Below are positions 11,608 to 41,200 of a stretch of 53,966 nt of DNA, piece by piece (the stretch's first letter is position 1; the number at the start of each line of letters is the position of its first letter). Origin of the DNA: Cyanobacteria bacterium GSL.Bin1 (GTDB lineage Bacteria; Cyanobacteriota; Cyanobacteriia; Cyanobacteriales; Rubidibacteraceae); assembly GCA_009909085.1 (NCBI GenBank), contig JAAANX010000172.1, positions 1 to 53,966 of the forward strand, given 5' to 3'. A program made the position numbers and the translations under genes. Under the pieces are notes generated by a model. That model had not been told where the DNA came from. It worked only from the letters and a program-made list of their open reading frames with translations, and searched no databases.

Positions 11608-12447
11608 TCAAGCTTTTGCCGAAAAGGGATACCGCTCTTCCGGGGGATTTTCGGTTTCTCGTACTGCTTCTACGAATTGACTAACTCGAATCGGATCAAT
11701 GGGATTGTGAATATTGCCATTCCGCTTCAGAGAACTGGCAACAATCACACCATCGGCTGCTTTGAAAAGACGAGGGACATTATCCCACGTTGCCCCACTA
11801 CCAATCAAAACAGGTTTACCAGAAGCCACACTAGCCGCAGTTTCCAAGTCTTCTAACCGAGGGGGGTCACCAGTGGTACCACCGGAAATAATGATGCCAT
11901 CTGCTAACCCTCGTTCCACCGTTTCTTGTACTGCCGTTGCTAAGGGAGGATTGCCCAACGGATAGGCATGTTTGACACAAACATCAGCAAAAATGCCAAT
12001 GTCTGAGCCCAATTCCCGTCGATAGCGCATTAAATCATGGGCTTCCCCTTCAATAATACCTTGATCGGTTGCCATAATACCGGTGAGTACATTCACCCGA
12101 ATAAACTGGGCATTGACACAAGACGCGATCGCGATCGCGCTTTTCGCATCATTGCGCAAAACATTAATCCCTACCGGTAACATCACCAAATTCATCACCC
12201 GTTGCACAATCAAAGTCATTGCGCTAACCACTGCCGGATCAACTTGATTTTTAGCAAAAGGAGCATCAAAGAAATTTTCAATAATAATACCGTCAACACC
12301 ACCGGCAGCTAAAGCCGTAGCTTCTTGTTCGGCACGTTCTCGGACAGCTTTTAAGTTACCGCCCCAACGGGGAGAAGAAGGAAGGGGCAGCAGGTGTACA
12401 ACACCAATCACGGGATGGGAAGTTTGAAAAATTTGTTCTAAGTCCAC
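11608..12447 (-). CDS. btpA: BtpA-family photosystem I biogenesis protein
   Basis: TIM-barrel-like protein of 279 residues. In Synechocystis the family member BtpA is a thylakoid-associated factor needed for stable accumulation of photosystem I reaction-centre proteins. Visible family blocks are VIGVVHLLPLPSSPRWGG, GGVDGIIIENFFDAPF, DVCVKHAYPLG and ISGGTTGDPP. No membrane helix or signal peptide is seen. It is followed at once by the VKOR-Trx gene, so a photosystem assembly factor and a disulfide oxidoreductase are probably expressed together. A double HIP1 site sits inside the gene near 12124. Confidence 0.93.
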   Translation of the reverse strand: MDLEQIFQTSHPVIGVVHLLPLPSSPRWGGNLKAVRERAEQEATALAAGGVDGIIIENFFDAPFAKNQVDPAVVSAMTLIVQRVMNLVMLPVGINVLRNDAKSAIAIASCVNAQFIRVNVLTGIMATDQGIIEGEAHDLMRYRRELGSDIGIFADVCVKHAYPLGNPPLATAVQETVERGLADGIIISGGTTGDPPRLEDLETAASVASGKPVLIGSGATWDNVPRLFKAADGVIVASSLKRNGNIHNPIDPIRVSQFVEAVRETENPPEERYPFSAKA

Positions 12448-12771
12448 GTTGTTTACTCGAACGCACTGCGAATAGAGTTCTTGAAGCAGTAACCAGGCGC
12501 AAATTATAAATTAATTACGTGATCCACCAGCTACTGTTTAACCCTAACCAACGGTCGCTGCAGGCAAGGGGTCGTCTGCAGAAATAACTTCCACAATCGG
12601 TTACCCCCACATCGGAAGGCCTTCCAACGTATTCTGCGACCACAAACTTTTTATAATAGCGGGTTATCGTCATTAAGACTACCACTATCTGACTCACTTC
12701 CGACACTGAGCAATCGCTCCTTACCTCAAACCATCCCAATCAAAACTCATATCTGAACTAAATCTAAAACT

Positions 12772-13961: not shown

Positions 13962-15218
13962 ATGGCAAATTCGCAAAATCAACGAGTGGTAGTGACGGGA
14001 CTGGGTGTTGTGGCTCCCGTCGGTAATACCTTAGAGGCATACTGGAACGCCCTCTTAGCAGGGCAAAACGGAATTGGCAAAATTACCCAATTTGACCCGA
14101 GTGCTCACGGGAGCCAAATTGCAGGGGAAGTCAAGGGATTTGACCCCCATGAATATTTAGACCGCAAGCAAGCCAAACGCATGGATCGGTTTTCTCAATT
14201 TGCCTTGGCTGCTAGTTTACAAGCCTTGAGTGATGCCAAGTTAGAAATCAACGACTTGAATGCCGATCAAGTTGGGGTAATGATTGGGACCGGAATTGGT
14301 GGGATTAAAGTGCTAGAAGATCAGCAAGAAGTGTATTTGAATCGGGGACCCAGTCGCTGTAGTCCCTTTATGGTACCAATGATGATTGCCAATATGGCAG
14401 CTGGCTTAACGGCGATTCATGTGGGGGCAAAAGGACCAAACTCGTGTCCAGTGACCGCTTGTGCAGCGGGTTCAAATGCAGTGGGAGATGCGTTTCGTGT
14501 CATCCAACGGGGAGATGCTCAAGCCATGATTTGTGGTGGAACCGAGGCAGCTGTTACCCCTTTGACTGTTGCAGGGTTTGCTGCTGCTAAAGCCCTCTCC
14601 AATCGCAATGATGATCCACAACATGCTTGTCGTCCTTTTGATAAAGATCGGAATGGATTTGTCATTGGTGAAGGATCAGGCATCTTGATTCTGGAATCCT
14701 TGGAACACGCGGCAGCAAGAGGGGCAAAAATCTATGGCGAAATAGTGGGATATGGGATGACCTGTGATGCTTACCATATGACTTCCCCGACTCCCGAAGG
14801 AACAGGAGCTGCTAAAGCGATCGCGCTAGCCCTCAAAGATGGCAATCTCAAGCCCGAAGACGTGAGCTATGTGAATGCTCATGGCACCAGTACCGCTGCT
14901 AATGATGTGACTGAAACCAAAGCGCTCAAAAAAGCGCTTGGAGAATCGGCCTATCGGGTAGCGATTAGTTCGACAAAATCCATGACTGGGCATTTACTCG
15001 GCGGTTCCGGCGGTATCGAAGCAGTGGCAACAGTCATGGCAATCGCGAATGACAAAATTCCCCCGACAATTAATCTCGAAAATCCTGATCCCGAATGCGA
15101 TCTCGACTATGTTCCTCAAATTGCCCGGGAGAGAGTTGTCAACTGTGCTTTGTCAAACTCCTTCGGATTTGGGGGGCACAATATTACATTAGCCTTTAAA
15201 AAGTATCCTTCTGGTTAA
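13962..15218 (+). CDS. fabF: beta-ketoacyl-ACP synthase II
   Basis: Cytosolic condensing enzyme that elongates acyl-ACP with malonyl-ACP. The catalytic triad is visible: Cys in CPVTACAAGS, His in NAHGTSTAANDVTET, and His in KSMTGHLLGGSGG. The C-terminal NSFGFGGHN block is also present. The frame opens at ATG 13923, only 12 bp after acpP; ATG 13962 (MANSQNQRVVVTGLG) matches the normal length of about 418 residues. It is the second gene of the acpP-fabF operon. Confidence 0.96.
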   Translation: MANSQNQRVVVTGLGVVAPVGNTLEAYWNALLAGQNGIGKITQFDPSAHGSQIAGEVKGFDPHEYLDRKQAKRMDRFSQFALAASLQALSDAKLEINDLNADQVGVMIGTGIGGIKVLEDQQEVYLNRGPSRCSPFMVPMMIANMAAGLTAIHVGAKGPNSCPVTACAAGSNAVGDAFRVIQRGDAQAMICGGTEAAVTPLTVAGFAAAKALSNRNDDPQHACRPFDKDRNGFVIGEGSGILILESLEHAAARGAKIYGEIVGYGMTCDAYHMTSPTPEGTGAAKAIALALKDGNLKPEDVSYVNAHGTSTAANDVTETKALKKALGESAYRVAISSTKSMTGHLLGGSGGIEAVATVMAIANDKIPPTINLENPDPECDLDYVPQIARERVVNCALSNSFGFGGHNITLAFKKYPSG

Positions 15219-15432
15219 ATGAGTTTTGTCAATATACAAACCACTCAGCATGAGTGCCTTCACCTGAAAAGGCGTCCGCTCTCAATTAGGATCAAAAACT
15301 CGCTTGCCCCTCAATCCCACTTTCTGTAAAGATAGAAGGGAATTATGGGCGCTGCTCAAATTTCGCTAGGGTTCTCGGAGAAAACCCATTAAAAAAATTT
15401 TCCAATAAACCGTAGTTACAGAAAAATCAGTT

Positions 15433-35126: not shown

Positions 35127-35735
35127 TTAAACTTTTCGGGAGTAGTACTCAACCACGAGGAGTTCATTAACTTGTAGCGCCACCCATTCCCGTTCAATGA
35201 TGCCATTGACTTTACCGGTATAGGTGTTTTTGTCAAATTCTAGATGACTGGGAAGGTTGGCTAACCCAGGATATTCCATATTTCGTTCGACTAGCTGTCG
35301 TGAGCGATCGCGATCTCTAACAGCAATCACGTCACCGGCACGACATTGATAACTTGCAATATCCATCACCCGTCCATTCACTAAAATATGACCATGATTC
35401 ACTAGCTGACGGGCAGCGGGGATGGTTCCTGCCATACCCATGCGGAAAACCGTATTATCCAAACGCATTTCCAGCATTTCTAGGAGGGCAGTTCCCGTAG
35501 AACCTGTTGCCCGACGGGCTTTTTTCATATAGCCCATCAACTGCTTCTCTGTAACACCATAGTTGTAGCGAAGTTTTTGTTTTTCTTCGAGACGAATTGC
35601 ATATTCCGAGCGTTTGCGTCGGGCTTGACCATGTTGACCTGGGGGATAGGCTTTGCGAGGACTTTTACGCGTGAGACCCGGCAAATCCCCTAAACGTCGC
35701 GTAATCCGCAGACGAGGACCTCGATATCTAGACAT
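35127..35735 (-). CDS. rpsD: ribosomal protein S4
   Basis: Primary 16S rRNA-binding protein of the small subunit, 202 residues. The N-terminus [20 protein letters not shown] and the S4 RNA-binding domain ([30 protein letters not shown]) are diagnostic. The frame is open to 35804, but ATG 35735 is the standard family start. Apart from the 35805-36400 region behind it, no other ribosomal gene is adjacent. Confidence 0.97.
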
Positions 35736-35804: not shown

Positions 35805-35988
35805 TCGTTACCAGCCTTTAGCATTAAGAAACCTGCTCAGACCTCACCAATTCGACAAAAAAATAGTGTATCTCTCCGCGTCCTGAGACAAATTAAGCAA
35901 CGAATAAATGATTTCTCCTGATTTTACCCCAAATTCACATTCCCACTGACAGCGCGATCCTTTTCCCTACTGCACCCCAACTAACCCT
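35805..35988. other. spacer without recognised gene, rpsD to mfd remnant
   Basis: No frame, RNA or repeat is recognised here. It contains the rpsD promoter region on the minus strand and the outer junction of the mfd remnant. Confidence 0.5.
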
Positions 35989-36282
35989 CTAAGGATTCTC
36001 TCAATTCTCCGAGCCAACTAATTAAGTGATCTAATCTGTTGTTGGGTTTTCAAAATACCCAATCCGCGCACCGTTACTTTTCCTTTGCTGTAAAAAAACG
36101 CGAAGCAATCTGTTTGGGAAGATGTTCTTGTAGGCGTTTCCAAGCGGGTTCTTCCATGGGCGTTTCTAAGGCAACGTGCTGTTTTCCTTCCGGTTTGATG
36201 CGAGAAAATACCGAGAGATTTGGTGATTTGTTTGAGTTCCATTACCTGTAATAATTGTTGAATGGGTGCAGGTAATTCGCCA
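35989..36282 (-). pseudogene. decayed second copy of the mfd 3' end
   Basis: This segment aligns base by base with 38313-38605 inside intact mfd. It begins at the codons for GELP before [11 protein letters not shown] and runs almost to the end of the gene. Against the intact copy I see three single-base indels: an extra T near 36037, a missing base in the A-run near 36090, and an extra base near 36206. The reading frame is therefore broken. Identity by eye is high (above about 80%). It is in the same orientation as mfd and lies on the far side of the two cassette genes. Confidence 0.88.
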
Positions 36283-36400
36283 AGCGCGATCGCGCTTCTT
36301 GCTTCCTAATCTTTAACTAAAATAGAGAGAACTATTCTTGTTCTAGTTTGGCTTTATTATTCAGCACTTGTCAGTTTTAATAAGTTGACATACTGCTTTT

Positions 36401-37078
36401 TCAATTATCTAAGTATTCTTTATTGTCTAGATAAATTTCAATATTACTTAAAATACTGCTTAAATATTTTACAATTTTCTTTTCTATTTGTAGTAATTCT
36501 TCTACACTTACATCTTTTCCAACTTGATTAAATGAAGAAAATCCATGGGCTAAATTGTTTCTATGAGATTTAATAGTTAGTAAGTCTGCACCATTATTAG
36601 TTTTTCTAGCATCAGTATTTACTGAAAATCCGTAAATATTAGCTATTTCTTTAACTTCTCTAGCATCAATATTTCCAGAAAATAAATTATTTTCATCAAA
36701 TGTTGCAGAAATTATATCAATAGAAATTGAGCTTATTTTATCTAAAAGTGTTTGTGGATTATGATTTTTAATGCTTTTGATTATAGTTTTCTTGATTTCT
36801 GGTTTGATCTGATCGAAAGAAATTTTCTGATTTTTTATTTCATCAAAAATTGCTTGCATTGCATTTCTCATCGTGGCTTCTACTAAATTATAAAGTAATA
36901 AAAAAGCAGAAGCCTTTAAAGTTTTTATTAGATCCTCATCTACTTTTTTAGTTTTTTCTTTTGGAGAAATTCCTAGTTTTATATTAATACTTTCACTTTC
37001 TAAGCCTTTTAAAAAGATTAAATATTTCCTAACTTCTTTAGCTCTTTCTTTAAAATCAGAAAATAGAAAATCAGTCAT
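36401..37078 (-). CDS. HEPN-domain protein (MAE_28990/MAE_18760-like)
   Basis: A 225-residue, Lys/Ile/Asn-rich helical protein. The HEPN signature R-x4-H is present as RNNLAH (Arg173-His178) in SHRNNLAHG, with an upstream helix LLLYNLVEATMRNAM that fits the family. HEPN proteins of this kind are often metal-independent RNases in toxin-antitoxin and defence systems; RNase activity here is inferred. Its ATG overlaps the stop of the DUF262 gene (TAATG), so it is translated right after it. Base composition is strikingly AT-rich compared with neighbours, which suggests acquisition. Confidence 0.8.
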   Translation of the reverse strand: MTDFLFSDFKERAKEVRKYLIFLKGLESESINIKLGISPKEKTKKVDEDLIKTLKASAFLLLYNLVEATMRNAMQAIFDEIKNQKISFDQIKPEIKKTIIKSIKNHNPQTLLDKISSISIDIISATFDENNLFSGNIDAREVKEIANIYGFSVNTDARKTNNGADLLTIKSHRNNLAHGFSSFNQVGKDVSVEELLQIEKKIVKYLSSILSNIEIYLDNKEYLDN

Positions 37079-38187
37079 TATGAAGTACCTAATATTTGAT
37101 TCTTTACATACTCAATACGTTTTCTAACTTTATTATTAGAACTACTCGCATCACCTTTAGTATATTCCTTAAATTCTTGCGACTCTATAAAATGCACTGA
37201 AGCAGGTATAAGATGATCTCTTTCCTTTAACGCTATTGCAATTCCTACAGATATAGATTCAAATTTAATACGAGTTATTGGTCTTTTAATTTTCTTTCCT
37301 GTCCGAAGACTTTCAGGAAAATATTGCTCTATAAAACTTAGAGTTAATTTAAACTCATCTCTCATTTTCTGAATTTCGTTATTTCTTTCACTCTCGGGCT
37401 GATTACGAAGATATTCATTACACTCCTCTAAGTAATTATTAAGAAAATCATGAACTTTACCTTTACCAGGAAATTTTTCATAATTATGTAAAAAAGCAAA
37501 GAAGCGTAAAATAAATTCATTTGGATCTTTTCTCTTAGTATTAGCTTCTGAAAAAGAACATAAATCCAAAAAAGTCTTATCTTCTGATAACTCTTCTATG
37601 AGATCTAATAAAGGACCTTGCTTAATCCCTCTACGTTTTTCCATCTCATTAAGTTCAACGCTACCTGTATTAATTCTCTCAAATAAATCTCTACGAACTT
37701 CTTCATCAGCTTTTTCTGTTAATTGAATCATACGGATAGTTGCTCTTTTAAAGCGCCTCTGACGAGATGGCAGGAAGTCTTTAAAGTAAAAATTATTTAG
37801 ACTTTTAAGTTTTTCAAGATTTACTAATTTTAATTGGTTATTAATAAATTTTGATAAAGTACGAATACGTTGCGTACCATCTATAATTTCCAAGCGTCCA
37901 TCATAGTTATCATCTTCGCTTTTTATATCTGCAACATAAATATAGGGAAGAGGTAAACCTAAAAATATGGATTCGATAAATTTAGATTGATGTTTTTCAT
38001 CCCAGGCTTCCTCTCGCTGATAATCTGGAATAAAAATCTCATTAGTATCTTCATCTTCCCCGTCGAGAAATTTTTGAACCAATATTTCGATAGGATATTC
38101 TACGGTAGAATAATCTACAGGTTTTCTTCTTTCACGAATTTCTTCTTCCGCAATTTCTTGTTTTGTTACTTTTGTTTGGTTTGACAT
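37078..38187 (-). CDS. DUF262 protein (GmrS-like/ParB-fold)
   Basis: A 369-residue protein. The DUF262 core (about 30-200) shows IPDYQREEAW (53-62), the IIDGTQR motif (103-107) and FERIN (169-173). This family includes the N-terminal NTPase/nuclease half of GmrSD and BrxU restriction systems and of SspE. There is no DUF1524 HNH domain fused to it, so the nuclease partner role may fall to the downstream HEPN protein. The gene is AT-rich and is the first of two coupled genes behind mfd. Confidence 0.82.
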   Translation of the reverse strand: MSNQTKVTKQEIAEEEIRERRKPVDYSTVEYPIEILVQKFLDGEDEDTNEIFIPDYQREEAWDEKHQSKFIESIFLGLPLPYIYVADIKSEDDNYDGRLEIIDGTQRIRTLSKFINNQLKLVNLEKLKSLNNFYFKDFLPSRQRRFKRATIRMIQLTEKADEEVRRDLFERINTGSVELNEMEKRRGIKQGPLLDLIEELSEDKTFLDLCSFSEANTKRKDPNEFILRFFAFLHNYEKFPGKGKVHDFLNNYLEECNEYLRNQPESERNNEIQKMRDEFKLTLSFIEQYFPESLRTGKKIKRPITRIKFESISVGIAIALKERDHLIPASVHFIESQEFKEYTKGDASSSNNKVRKRIEYVKNQILGTS

Positions 38188-38249
38188 AATTTTTGCAATA
38201 TTTATATCTTATTGAAGGTAATATAAAATGGATAATTGAAAAGGAAATT

Positions 38250-38280
38250 TGGTTGTTATATGAATAAAATATAATAACCA
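38250..38280. repeat. AT-rich inverted repeat between cassette and mfd
   Basis: A 12-bp inverted repeat (TGGTTGTTATAT with ATATAATAACCA, one G-T pair, loop GAATAAA) lies four bases past the mfd stop. It may terminate mfd transcription or mark the cassette boundary; the flanking T-run expected of a terminator is weak. Confidence 0.6.
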
Positions 38281-38284
38281 CTTT

Positions 38285-41200
38285 CTATGATTTAATAATC
38301 GCGCTGTCTTGATCTAAAGATGCTCTCAATTCTCCTAACCAGCTAATTAAGTTATCTAACTGTTGTTGGGTTTTCAAAACACCCAATCCGCGCACCGTGA
38401 CTTTCCCTTGGCTGTAAACAAAACGCGACGCAATCTGTTTGGGAAGATGTTCTTGTAAGCGTTTCCAAGCGGGTTCTTCCATCGGAGTTTCTAGAGTAAC
38501 GTGCTGTTTTCCTTCCGGTTTAATGCGAGAAAAGCCAAGGGATTTGGTGATTTGTTTTAATTCCATGACCTGTAATAATTGTTGAACCGGAGAAGGTAAT
38601 TCGCCATACCGATCGCGCCAATCTTGTCTGATTTGATCGAGTTCTTTCTTGCTACTTGCCATCGTTACTGTGCGATACGCATCCATTTTTTGATCCATAT
38701 CGGTGATGTAATTATTCGGAACAAATGCCGTTAATTTCAGATCAATTTGCGTATCTTCCACTTGCGGAATATCTTGTCCTTGGACTTCCTGAATTGCTTC
38801 TTGTAGCATACTCATATACAAATCGAAGCCCACTGCATTCATTTGTCCCGACTGTTTCGCACCGAGTAACTCGCCAACGCCCCGAATCTCTAAATCACGC
38901 ATGGCTAGTTGATATCCCGAACCGAGTTGGGTAAACTCTTGCAACGCCCGCAGTCGTTTTTTTGCGGTATCGCTGAGACTACTTTGCTTGGGATAGAGTA
39001 ACCAGGCATGGGCTTGAATCCCCGACCGTCCAACACGCCCTCGCAGTTGATACAGTTGGGATAAGCCGAATTTTTGCGAATCTTCCACAACAATGGTATT
39101 CACGCGGGGAATATCTAACCCAGACTCAATAATGGTCGTACAAACGAGAATATCCGCATCCCCATTGTTGAACGTTAGCATGGTGGATTCTAATTCCCCT
39201 TCGTCCATTTGTCCGTGCGCGATCGCGATCCGTGCGCCAGGAACCATTTCTCGCAGTTTTCCGGCTGTTTCTTCAATCCCTTCTACTCGCGGAACCACAT
39301 AAAAGACTTGTCCACCGCGATCTAATTCATTGCGAATTGCCGTGCGAATCGCTTCTCCATCGTAAGGGGATAAATGGGTTTTAATCGGACGACGGGAGGG
39401 CGGTGGCGTAGTAATCAGACTCATTTCCCGAATCCCAGAAAGAGACATATATAAAGTTCGCGGAATCGGGGTTGCAGTTAAGGTGAGAACATCCACCTCG
39501 GTTTTCATGGATTTGATTTTCTCTTTTTGGTTCACCCCAAACCGTTGTTCTTCATCCACCACCAACATTCCCAAGTCTTTATATTTCACACTCTTATTGA
39601 GAAGTTGGTGCGTTCCGACCACGACATCTAATTCACCAGTAGAGAGACGCTTCAAAATATCTTTCCGTTCGTTAGCGGTACGGAAACGATTGAGTAACCC
39701 AATATTGATCGGATAAGGGGCAAACCGTTCTTTGAGGGTGTGATAATGCTGTTGGGTGAGAATCGTGGTGGGTGCGAGAAACGCCACTTGTTTCCCTGAC
39801 ATGAGAATTTTAAAGATCGCCCGAATCGCCACTTCTGTTTTCCCAAAACCCACATCCCCACACACCAAGCGATCCATTGGCAACTCACTTTCTAAATCGC
39901 GTTTTACATCCTGAACCGCTTTTAACTGGTCGGGGGTGGCTTGATACGGGAAGGAATCTTCTAATTCTTGTTGCCAAGGCGTATCCTCAGGATAGGAATA
40001 ACCGGAAAGCTGCGATCGCTTTGCGTATAAATCGAGTAAGTCAATGGCAACTTTTTTAACCGCTTTCTCGACCTTATTTTTCGTATTTTGCCAGGCTTTT
40101 CCTGACATTTTATTTAGTTGCGGTTTTCCTTCTCCCAAATGGCGGTAACGAGAGAGGGATTCTAAACTATCGGCGGGAACTCTTAACAAGCCATCCGCAT
40201 ACTCAACCACCAAATATTCTCGGGTTTCCCAACTTTCTAGTTTTAAAAACTTGCCAACGCCATGCTGACGATGAACCACATAATCTCCCGGACGCAGCTT
40301 GTTGAGATCAACTTGCTTCGATGCAGCCCGTCGGCGTTTGCGAATATAACTGGGTGTGGTTAAAACGTGCTGTCCGAAAAATTCCCGGTCAGTAACAACT
40401 GCAATACGAAACGTGGGGAGGATAAAGCCTTCCACTTCCCCTAACCCCGAATATTTCACCGCAACGGCTGTTTTTTCGCGCTGTAACTTTTCAATCGCAG
40501 GATAATCGCGGGGGTTGGGAACAAATTGCGCCGGACAATCGTGTTCTTGGAGTAAGGAAACCGATCGCGAGGGTTGGGCGGAAATAATCCAAGTGTCATA
40601 ATTTTCTAGGGTCATCCCACTGTAAATTTCTCGTTTTCCTCTGATGATTTCCGCTAGCTTGGCAAATTGGTGTGGAGTAACGGGAAGGGGACGACTGGCG
40701 AGATTGACTCCTGAGTCATTTTCTTCGGTAATTTCAGACAAATGAAGCTGATAGAACAGTTCTGCATCTTCTAAACAGGTTGGCAAGTCCGCATGAAGGC
40801 GAGGAAGGTCAGGATTACTTTCTTGATATTGGTCTTCGGTATGTTCTAACCAGCGATCGCTGTGGGCTTGACATTGTTCTGGTTCATCCACCACAACGAG
40901 AGTATTCTCGGGAAGATAATCTAGTAAGGAAGCAGGTTCAGGATACGCTAACCCTAAGAACCGGTGCATCCCATCCGGATAATTCTCTTCTTCAAAGGCG
41001 GACTGTTCTTCTGAAGAAAGATAAGAATACAGACGATCTAAGTTTTCTTGTTCGGTAATACCTTTGGCAATCAGAGGCGAAAAACTAGTCGGAGTTAAGG
41101 TCAGGCTTTCAATTTGATCTAAGGATCGTTGACTCACCGGATCAAACTCGCGCAGTTGTTCCAGTTCATCGCCAAACCACTCTAAGCGAATGGGAAGTTC

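Follow-up and report, generated by a model that had tools for sequence, protein, structure and literature searches.

The e14 and phage 21 elements at icd leave an intact gene with a new 3′ end, the insert, and the displaced old end, icdC, and they come with an integrase and a fixed att core. A similar layout is present in a 53,966-nt contig of Cyanobacteria bacterium GSL.Bin1 (GenBank assembly GCA_009909085.1, contig JAAANX010000172.1; this whole stretch is referred to as the window): An intact mfd gene is followed by a DUF262 gene, a HEPN gene, and a second, decayed mfd 3′ end, or tail, but no integrase was found here. One joint of the locus lies at a site of the HIP1 type, HIP1 being an over-abundant cyanobacterial palindrome of unknown use. 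Restriction–modification (R-M) insertions with long target duplication also resemble the locus, with selfish or defense genes lacking an integrase between host direct repeats of ~100 bp or longer (as outlined in PMC3874152 and PMC3031569), whereas here the cargo includes DUF262-HEPN and toxin–antitoxin genes, copy starts favor HIP1, and the repeats can be mosaic. Duplications from recircularized fragments in Escherichia coli likewise place a duplicated gene end of 109–950 bp behind the insert but, as that system is described in the cited part of PMC3240628, involve a laboratory plasmid, no HIP1, and no defense cargo. Finally, PD-T4-2 (Vassallo 2022) combines DUF262 and HEPN in one system (per the relevant entries of PMC10952713) and the DUF262 protein here matches PD-T4-2_A, although it scores higher to PADLOC NsnA, and the HEPN protein matches MAE_28990 best and PF18735 second.

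The locus is a variant of the known insertion with long target duplication; its noteworthy part is the recurrence, the arrays, and the HIP1 joints. We propose, with a probability of roughly 0.53, that it arose by integrase-free capture: A circle, closed by an illegitimate join that in such loci often lies at HIP1, would have recombined once with the resident gene through the tail common to both. Gene capture is a likelier source of this scar than a lost integrase. Defense and toxin–antitoxin genes often move between genomes without a visible vehicle, and tail copies behind housekeeping genes, carried by ~2 to 3% of genomes in the case of both mfd and ileS, are a readable record of such moves. 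HIP1 joints link a long-standing cyanobacterial genome puzzle to a process testable in transformable strains.

Results

A Second, Decayed mfd End Lies Beyond the Cargo

The mfd tail forms a direct repeat of host sequence of ~308 bp (35988–36295 against 38313–38618; 89% identity, E 6e-109), and a search of the window genome (G000; 4.82 Mb in 210 contigs) with the tail copy returned 38313–38618 as the sole match besides itself. Alignment places an insertion, a deletion, and an insertion in the copy, each of a single base, plus one additional base at the junction. The reading frame of this copy, which adjoins rpsD, is broken, and mfd itself is open over 1166 aa; search and alignment thus bear out the original prediction, made from the letters of the window, of a repeated mfd end with three single-base indels and an intact mfd beside the cassette. 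It had also reported no visible integrase, which holds for the genes identified between the repeats: By open reading frame (ORF) list and Pfam, these are the DUF262 and HEPN genes only. Both are AT-rich, with G+C of 0.305 (DUF262) and 0.245 (HEPN) against 0.437 for the window, and they do lie between the repeats, though not exactly, as had been claimed, because a methylase stub intervenes.

The Joint Is a HIP1-Type Site Next to a Methylase Stub

Same-genus comparison genomes are denoted G001–G005. G001, the nearest relative compared (mfd 91% identical), carries behind mfd a HindIII-type endonuclease gene (Pfam RE_HindIII, E 4e-78) and then a methylase gene (N6_N4_Mtase, E 3e-38), with no second mfd end in the 7.7 kb behind mfd. 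G001–G004 each have a single mfd end in the downstream bases examined; G005 gave no mfd match.

Window positions 36287–36382 match the G001 locus (L155, 14208–14305) at 83%, over the last codons of the methylase and ~30 bp behind it, HIP1-type site included. This site, GCGCGATCG, is common to mfd and to the sequence behind the G001 methylase. After GCGCGATCG, G001 continues in non-mfd DNA, whereas the window continues in the mfd tail; the window joint is therefore a HIP1-type site common to both parents.

We take the stub, from its match to G001, as a probable trace of an earlier HindIII-type R-M pair in the same slot, the cargo behind mfd having changed. As an R-M system, the cargo is represented in the window by the methylase stub alone and in G001 by the methylase and an apparently interrupted endonuclease gene. 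The latter gene (L155 12413–13258) has an apparent in-frame stop at 12542–12544 that leaves two ORFs in one frame, and G001 may retain only the methylase of the pair. The HindIII-type methylase has no match in the window genome at E 1e-30.

Assigning the stub to a DUF262-HEPN operon was rejected, as the methylase gave no match at the other such pairs searched and the stub match extends into non-coding bases behind the G001 gene. At E 0.001, the methylase matched nothing in 16 HEPN loci (flanks up to 1.5 kb per side, shorter in L178 and L181) or in the 15 best DUF262 loci (lower-scoring L141–L154 left out) of other cyanobacteria, two sets that are largely identical places. A cytosine methylase gene does occur near the DUF262 gene of one phage and beside an annotated DUF262-HEPN pair on a plasmid, and the 2013 HEPN survey (PMC3710099), in its cited section, describes operons that join MAE_28990 to a ParB nuclease and DNA methylases.

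The Two Tails Are Mosaic Relative to G001

Across the tail copy, the intact tail, and G001, 29 sites separate a pattern uniting copy and G001 against the intact tail from one uniting copy and intact tail against G001. Their distribution changes along the tail: 11 and 1 sites, respectively, over the first 165 bp, 3 and 12 over the 98 bp that follow, and 1 and 1 over the last 33 bp, where 4 sites unite the intact tail with G001. Over the first 165 bp, the decayed copy is ~96% identical to G001 and the intact copy ~91%. The best single breakpoint falls between 149 and 166 (permutation p 0.002), and trees place the copy with G001 in the first part (bootstrap 57) and with the intact tail in the second (bootstrap 99). 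These site patterns mark neither tail as purely "old" or "new"; the mosaic would fit a crossover within the tail or subsequent gene conversion.

According to the original prediction, the cassette brought a replacement mfd terminus and left the old one to decay. This reading is partly supported. Consistent with it are the single ends in relatives and the tails themselves, which are 11% apart and do not form one group along their full length, as a recent tandem duplication would. The mosaic ends do not support a clean replacement, and, given the methylase stub, the DUF262-HEPN pair need not have carried the tail. What the prediction had offered as an alternative, homologous recombination with a donor, is now the favored reading.

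Two Nodosilinea loci provide a parallel. The intact tail of L039 shares 94.4% identity with L042, against 84.2% for the 1 kb of gene upstream; the L046 copy has its nearest match in the L039 tail (91.2%), against 84.8% for the gene upstream. On these identities, the foreign tail would be the intact one in L039 and the copy in L046, both of which are expected from one crossover at different places.

The mosaic bears on two other accounts. The R-M pair could have inserted itself with a long target duplication and later been replaced by DUF262-HEPN. R-M genes are described as inserting with long, variable target duplications of some 100 bp in order of size (in the passage of PMC3874152 citing Nobusato 2000 and Furuta 2010), and the methylase stub sits at the joint. 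That description, however, names a pattern and not a mechanism, many other intervals lack an R-M gene among the ORFs scanned, and a self-made duplication should begin identical rather than mosaic; we consider this origin distinctly improbable. We think it very unlikely that the mfd tail and R-M pair were instead duplicated locally in tandem by slippage between two HIP1 sites, with one R-M copy then lost and the other swapped. Such slippage would explain the HIP1 joint and accords with the nearly identical tails at some loci (99.1% in L192 and 97.5% in L197), but the divergence of the window tails does not suit it, G001 is a closer match to part of the copy than the sister tail is, and further deletions would be required to place the tail beside rpsD.

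Tail Copies Recur Behind mfd and ileS

The two Nodosilinea genomes carry a tail copy behind mfd, with 127 bp aligned and a BrnT toxin gene between in L039, and with 144 bp in L046. A class-wide search with the mfd end gave a match in 368 of 388 genomes, G000 included; the 26 other multi-match genomes and 12 more of genus g87 were re-searched with a Nodosilinea query, a procedure that leaves out single-match genomes and misses weak or short copies. As the survey used gene 3′ ends only, repeats of other gene parts are likewise missed. In 11 of the 367 other genomes (G302, G358 [the L046 genome], G113, G412, G359, G243, G268, G148, G332, G092, and G369), a partial copy follows mfd at a distance of ~0.4 to 7 kb, on the contig and strand of mfd itself. 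The additional mfd matches of genus g87 were rejected as tails: They are long Mfd-like genes on other contigs, ~36% identical, a few of them cut by a contig end. G209, G260, and G197 of this genus have up to four such additional genes, ~36% identical to the query at their ends, and these are possibly plasmid-borne Mfd paralogues.

The same procedure applied to the ileS end as a control matched 355 of 376 genomes, 24 of them more than once, and these 24 were re-searched. Seven of the 355 (G236, G268, G047, G389, G263, G383, and G264) carry an ileS 3′-end piece downstream on the same contig and strand; the remaining multi-match genomes have a single gene with a split match or a second match on another contig. 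The mfd and ileS rates do not differ (Fisher p 0.48, with mfd entered as 11/368), and tail copies are not peculiar to mfd. A view of mfd as a special hotspot, where a site-specific element would insert with its breakpoint ~145 bp upstream of the stop, was dropped after this control. A wider control of 306 ORFs of at least 200 aa, mfd included, from 44 cyanobacterial loci found downstream same-strand partial copies for two mfd genes, for one gene taken by eye for HsdS, and for two weaker pairs taken for tandem paralogues. It leans against equal rates, and genes may differ in how often they acquire tail copies.

Some copies, including those in L194, L202, L205, L206, and others, end before the stop codon. 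More than one mfd piece is present in G113, G412, and G358, and in G383 (L207) three ileS tail pieces alternate with cargo from 0 to +3.8 kb behind ileS. Recurrence of the same event would be expected to build arrays of this kind. The L207 cargo consists of a pentapeptide-like gene, a YoeB toxin gene, and a Uma2 gene, and behind the last piece lies a DUF262-like gene by eye (VDGLQR).

Several mfd loci have features of their own. L192 (G113) holds two tail copies, the nearer 99% identical and extending past the stop and the farther 91%; a Fic gene lies in the first interval. The same tail copy is present in L196 (G243) and L197 (G268), which belong to two species of one genus and have intervals of 2.2 and 3.5 kb, respectively; a phage-integrase N-terminal fragment (PF13495), presumably IntI-like, lies just before the copy in L196, and a transposase-like gene was seen by eye in L197. 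In Nodosilinea P-1105 (L046), a small gene occurs twice (11693–11929 and 15072–15401), each time beside an mfd tail piece, the nearer one without a Pfam match, as if gene and tail had moved together.

Copy Starts Favor HIP1

Copy starts were set against the positions of HIP1 cores (CGATCG, extended to 10 bp) over the final 500 bp of each gene. Among all 24 copies at E 1e-9, 8 starts lie within 3 bp of HIP1 (1.35 expected, p 0.0001) and 11 within 8 bp (2.2 expected). The excess persists with one start per locus, L197 being dropped as the same event as L196 and L192 left out because its copy extends past the 500 bp (6/18 within 3 bp; 0.96 expected, p 0.0002), and also when the window, the source of the idea, is excluded (5/17; 0.93 expected, p 0.002). 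HIP1 at copy starts is favored, not required. In the ileS copy of L203 (G268; +2407 to +2686), a deletion runs exactly between two HIP1 sites that are still present in the intact gene.

For Halothece PCC 7418, PMC4390886 reports gCGCGATCGCGc as the extended HIP in the part that treats it. The same text, citing Akiyama 1998 and Robinson 1997, ties HIP1 in Synechococcus to both illegitimate and site-specific recombination and states at that point that no evidence connects HIP1 with homologous recombination.

The positions of the starts also bear on another account, a decayed site-specific element whose attachment site was the mfd 3′ end and whose integrase has been lost. Its layout of intact gene, insert, and displaced gene end would be that of e14 at icd; 8 of 12 mfd loci start 122 to 170 bp before the stop, and the integrase fragment of L196 stands just before a copy. 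Yet mfd copy starts overall spread from −77 to −360, ileS has tail copies at a like rate, the window interval has no nameable gene besides DUF262 and HEPN, and the L196 fragment is the sole integrase trace among the other mfd-interval ORFs scanned (a partial scan). We judge a lost integrase to be highly improbable.

A Capture Model and Its Difficulties

In the capture model, a related cyanobacterium would have donated a DNA fragment holding an mfd tail and the defense cargo downstream of it. The far end of this fragment, a HIP1-type site behind the cargo, would have been joined illegitimately to a HIP1-type site in mfd, most simply by circularization, and a single crossover between the shared tail and the resident mfd would have followed. 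The product would be the resident mfd with a hybrid tail, the cargo, the HIP1 joint, the second tail, and then the downstream DNA of the resident; the upstream mfd would remain whole under selection while the second tail decays. The cargo would once have been a HindIII-type R-M pair, of which the methylase stub is left, and would now be the DUF262-HEPN pair.

Capture is supported because GCGCGATCG occurs both behind the G001 methylase and in mfd at the copy start, because the G001 slot holds the HindIII-type R-M genes without a second tail in 7.7 kb, because the tails are mosaic relative to G001 (p 0.002), and because of the L039 and L046 tails together with the recurrence behind mfd and ileS and the HIP1 excess. 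There is also an experimental precedent: E. coli Lac− recombinants obtained with a lacZ-end fragment carried a partial lacZ duplication in 56 of 60 cases, which the authors, in the section concerned, read as a recircularized molecule entering by a single crossover, with duplications of 109 to 950 bp in the 14 sequenced (PMC3240628). Such single crossovers are reported there to be recA-dependent.

The closest competitor gives the same junctions as those observed and shares the HIP1 joint: A linear fragment taken up by transformation would enter in one step by homology-facilitated illegitimate recombination, with a crossover in the mfd tail and a HIP1 microhomology join in the resident mfd. Microhomology of 3 to 10 bp is usual at the illegitimate junction of such events, but they generally produce deletion, not duplication (both from the same part of PMC3240628), and a second tail that is wholly resident does not predict the mosaic. 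We regard this linear route as unlikely.

Several points weigh against capture through a circle. The mosaic is based on 29 informative sites, the clade of copy and G001 has a bootstrap of only 57, gene conversion could give the same pattern, and the L190 comparison gave no decision between tails. Copy ends have no clear HIP1 excess (3/24; 1.35 expected, p 0.15), and in 12 of 18 loci the copy starts more than 3 bp from HIP1. The clustering of 8 of 12 mfd starts is not required by the model; among the clustered starts, HIP1 is close by only in L196, L197, and L199, and a preferred start region of another kind is possible. The swap of R-M for DUF262-HEPN needs a second event. No donor molecule was seen, and neither was an empty mfd–rpsD site, which is the weakest point of any account. 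The original prediction had looked to the mfd–rpsD interval of relatives, but rpsD adjoins mfd in no comparator, which leaves the preinsertion state unseen: The rpsD gene lies 1.5 to 2.3 Mb from mfd by coordinates in G001, G002, and G004 and was found behind mfd in none of 81 loci, about half of them cyanobacterial, with 266 bp to >10 kb downstream examined (84 mfd loci minus L059, L074, and L086, which have no stop in reach).

We advance as doubtful the broader notion that HIP1 is the joint for integrase-free capture of defense and toxin–antitoxin modules, cargo and gene tail being cut or closed at HIP1. If true, cargo could slot behind the same gene in any relative by homology, and cyanobacterial housekeeping genes would gather arrays of exchangeable cargo separated by copies of their own tails.

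The Cargo Is Probably a Phage Defense Pair

The DUF262 protein scores 3.8e-62 to PADLOC NsnA and 3.8e-32 to PD-T4-2_A. Its IDGTQR motif is conserved across 16 proteins, and the R and H of the HEPN motif RNNLAH are conserved at ≥90% across 17. The pair consists of adjacent DUF262 and HEPN genes with intact motifs, as in PD-T4-2-like systems; a DUF1524 nuclease domain accompanying DUF262, as in type IV GmrSD systems, was absent, with only GmrSD_N and HEPN models matching at E 0.001. A review includes PD-T4-2 in its listings both under DUF262 and under HEPN (PMC10952713, citing Vassallo 2022, PMC9519451). The pair is probably a phage defense system by sequence likeness, with DUF262 predicted as a nucleotide-dependent sensor and HEPN as an RNase effector.

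The two genes co-occur in the 15 best DUF262 loci and the 16 HEPN loci of other cyanobacteria. Among 60 genomes, no DUF262 relative is closer than 66% identity. DUF262 relatives are also found on phages and plasmids, including one Klebsiella plasmid with an annotated HEPN gene adjoining.

Other mfd intervals (the 11 class genomes and L039; ORFs partly scanned) hold a named toxin, Fic, or PIN domain in 7 of 12 cases: BrnT in L039, Fic in L192, ParE in L193, HigB in L196, the same HigB-like gene (by likeness) in L197, PIN with MazE in L200, and PIN with T5orf172 in L201. L190 has DUF6883 and DUF4926, L199 has DUF2283, and L198 (G148) has DUF4145 and DUF5343, which may be another HEPN-type two-gene module; L191 and L194 showed nothing of toxin, Fic, PIN, or DUF kind among the ORFs scanned. 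The ileS intervals contain a Pfam toxin in one of seven (L207, YoeB) and Uma2 in L202 and L207 by Pfam and in L203 by eye. Among the first ORFs behind 27 tail-less mfd genes, read by eye, a few are R-M- or antitoxin-like, and we therefore do not claim toxin enrichment.

Features of the Locus

Table 1. Coordinates of the mfd locus and its parts in the window
Feature	Position	Strand	Evidence
mfd, intact, 1166 aa	38285-41785	-	Open frame; Pfam DEAD, UvrB_inter, TRCF, CarD_TRCF_RID
Repeated 3′ tail of intact mfd	38313-38618	-	89% to 35988-36295
HIP1-type site CGATCGCGC in intact mfd tail	38610-38618		Read from sequence
DUF262 (GmrSD_N) protein, 369 aa, motif IDGTQR	37078-38187	-	Pfam PF03235, E 3.2e-29
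HEPN protein, 225 aa, motif RNNLAH (R173-H178)	36401-37078	-	Pfam HEPN_MAE_28990, E 1.4e-41; HEPN_RiboL-PSP, 8.9e-10
Stub: decayed 3′ end of HindIII-type methylase gene and ~20 bp behind	36296-36382	-	Match to L155 (G001)
HIP1-type joint GCGCGATCGCGC, methylase stub/mfd tail copy	36284-36295	none	Read from sequence
Decayed second mfd 3′ tail copy, three frameshifting indels	35988-36283	-	Genome search and alignment
rpsD, next gene downstream	35127-35732	-	Pfam Ribosomal_S4 and S4; start set at MSRYRG

On the minus strand, the order is mfd, the DUF262 gene, the HEPN gene, the short stub, the second mfd 3′ end, and rpsD, beyond which lie glutaredoxin-like and deaminase-like genes assigned by eye.

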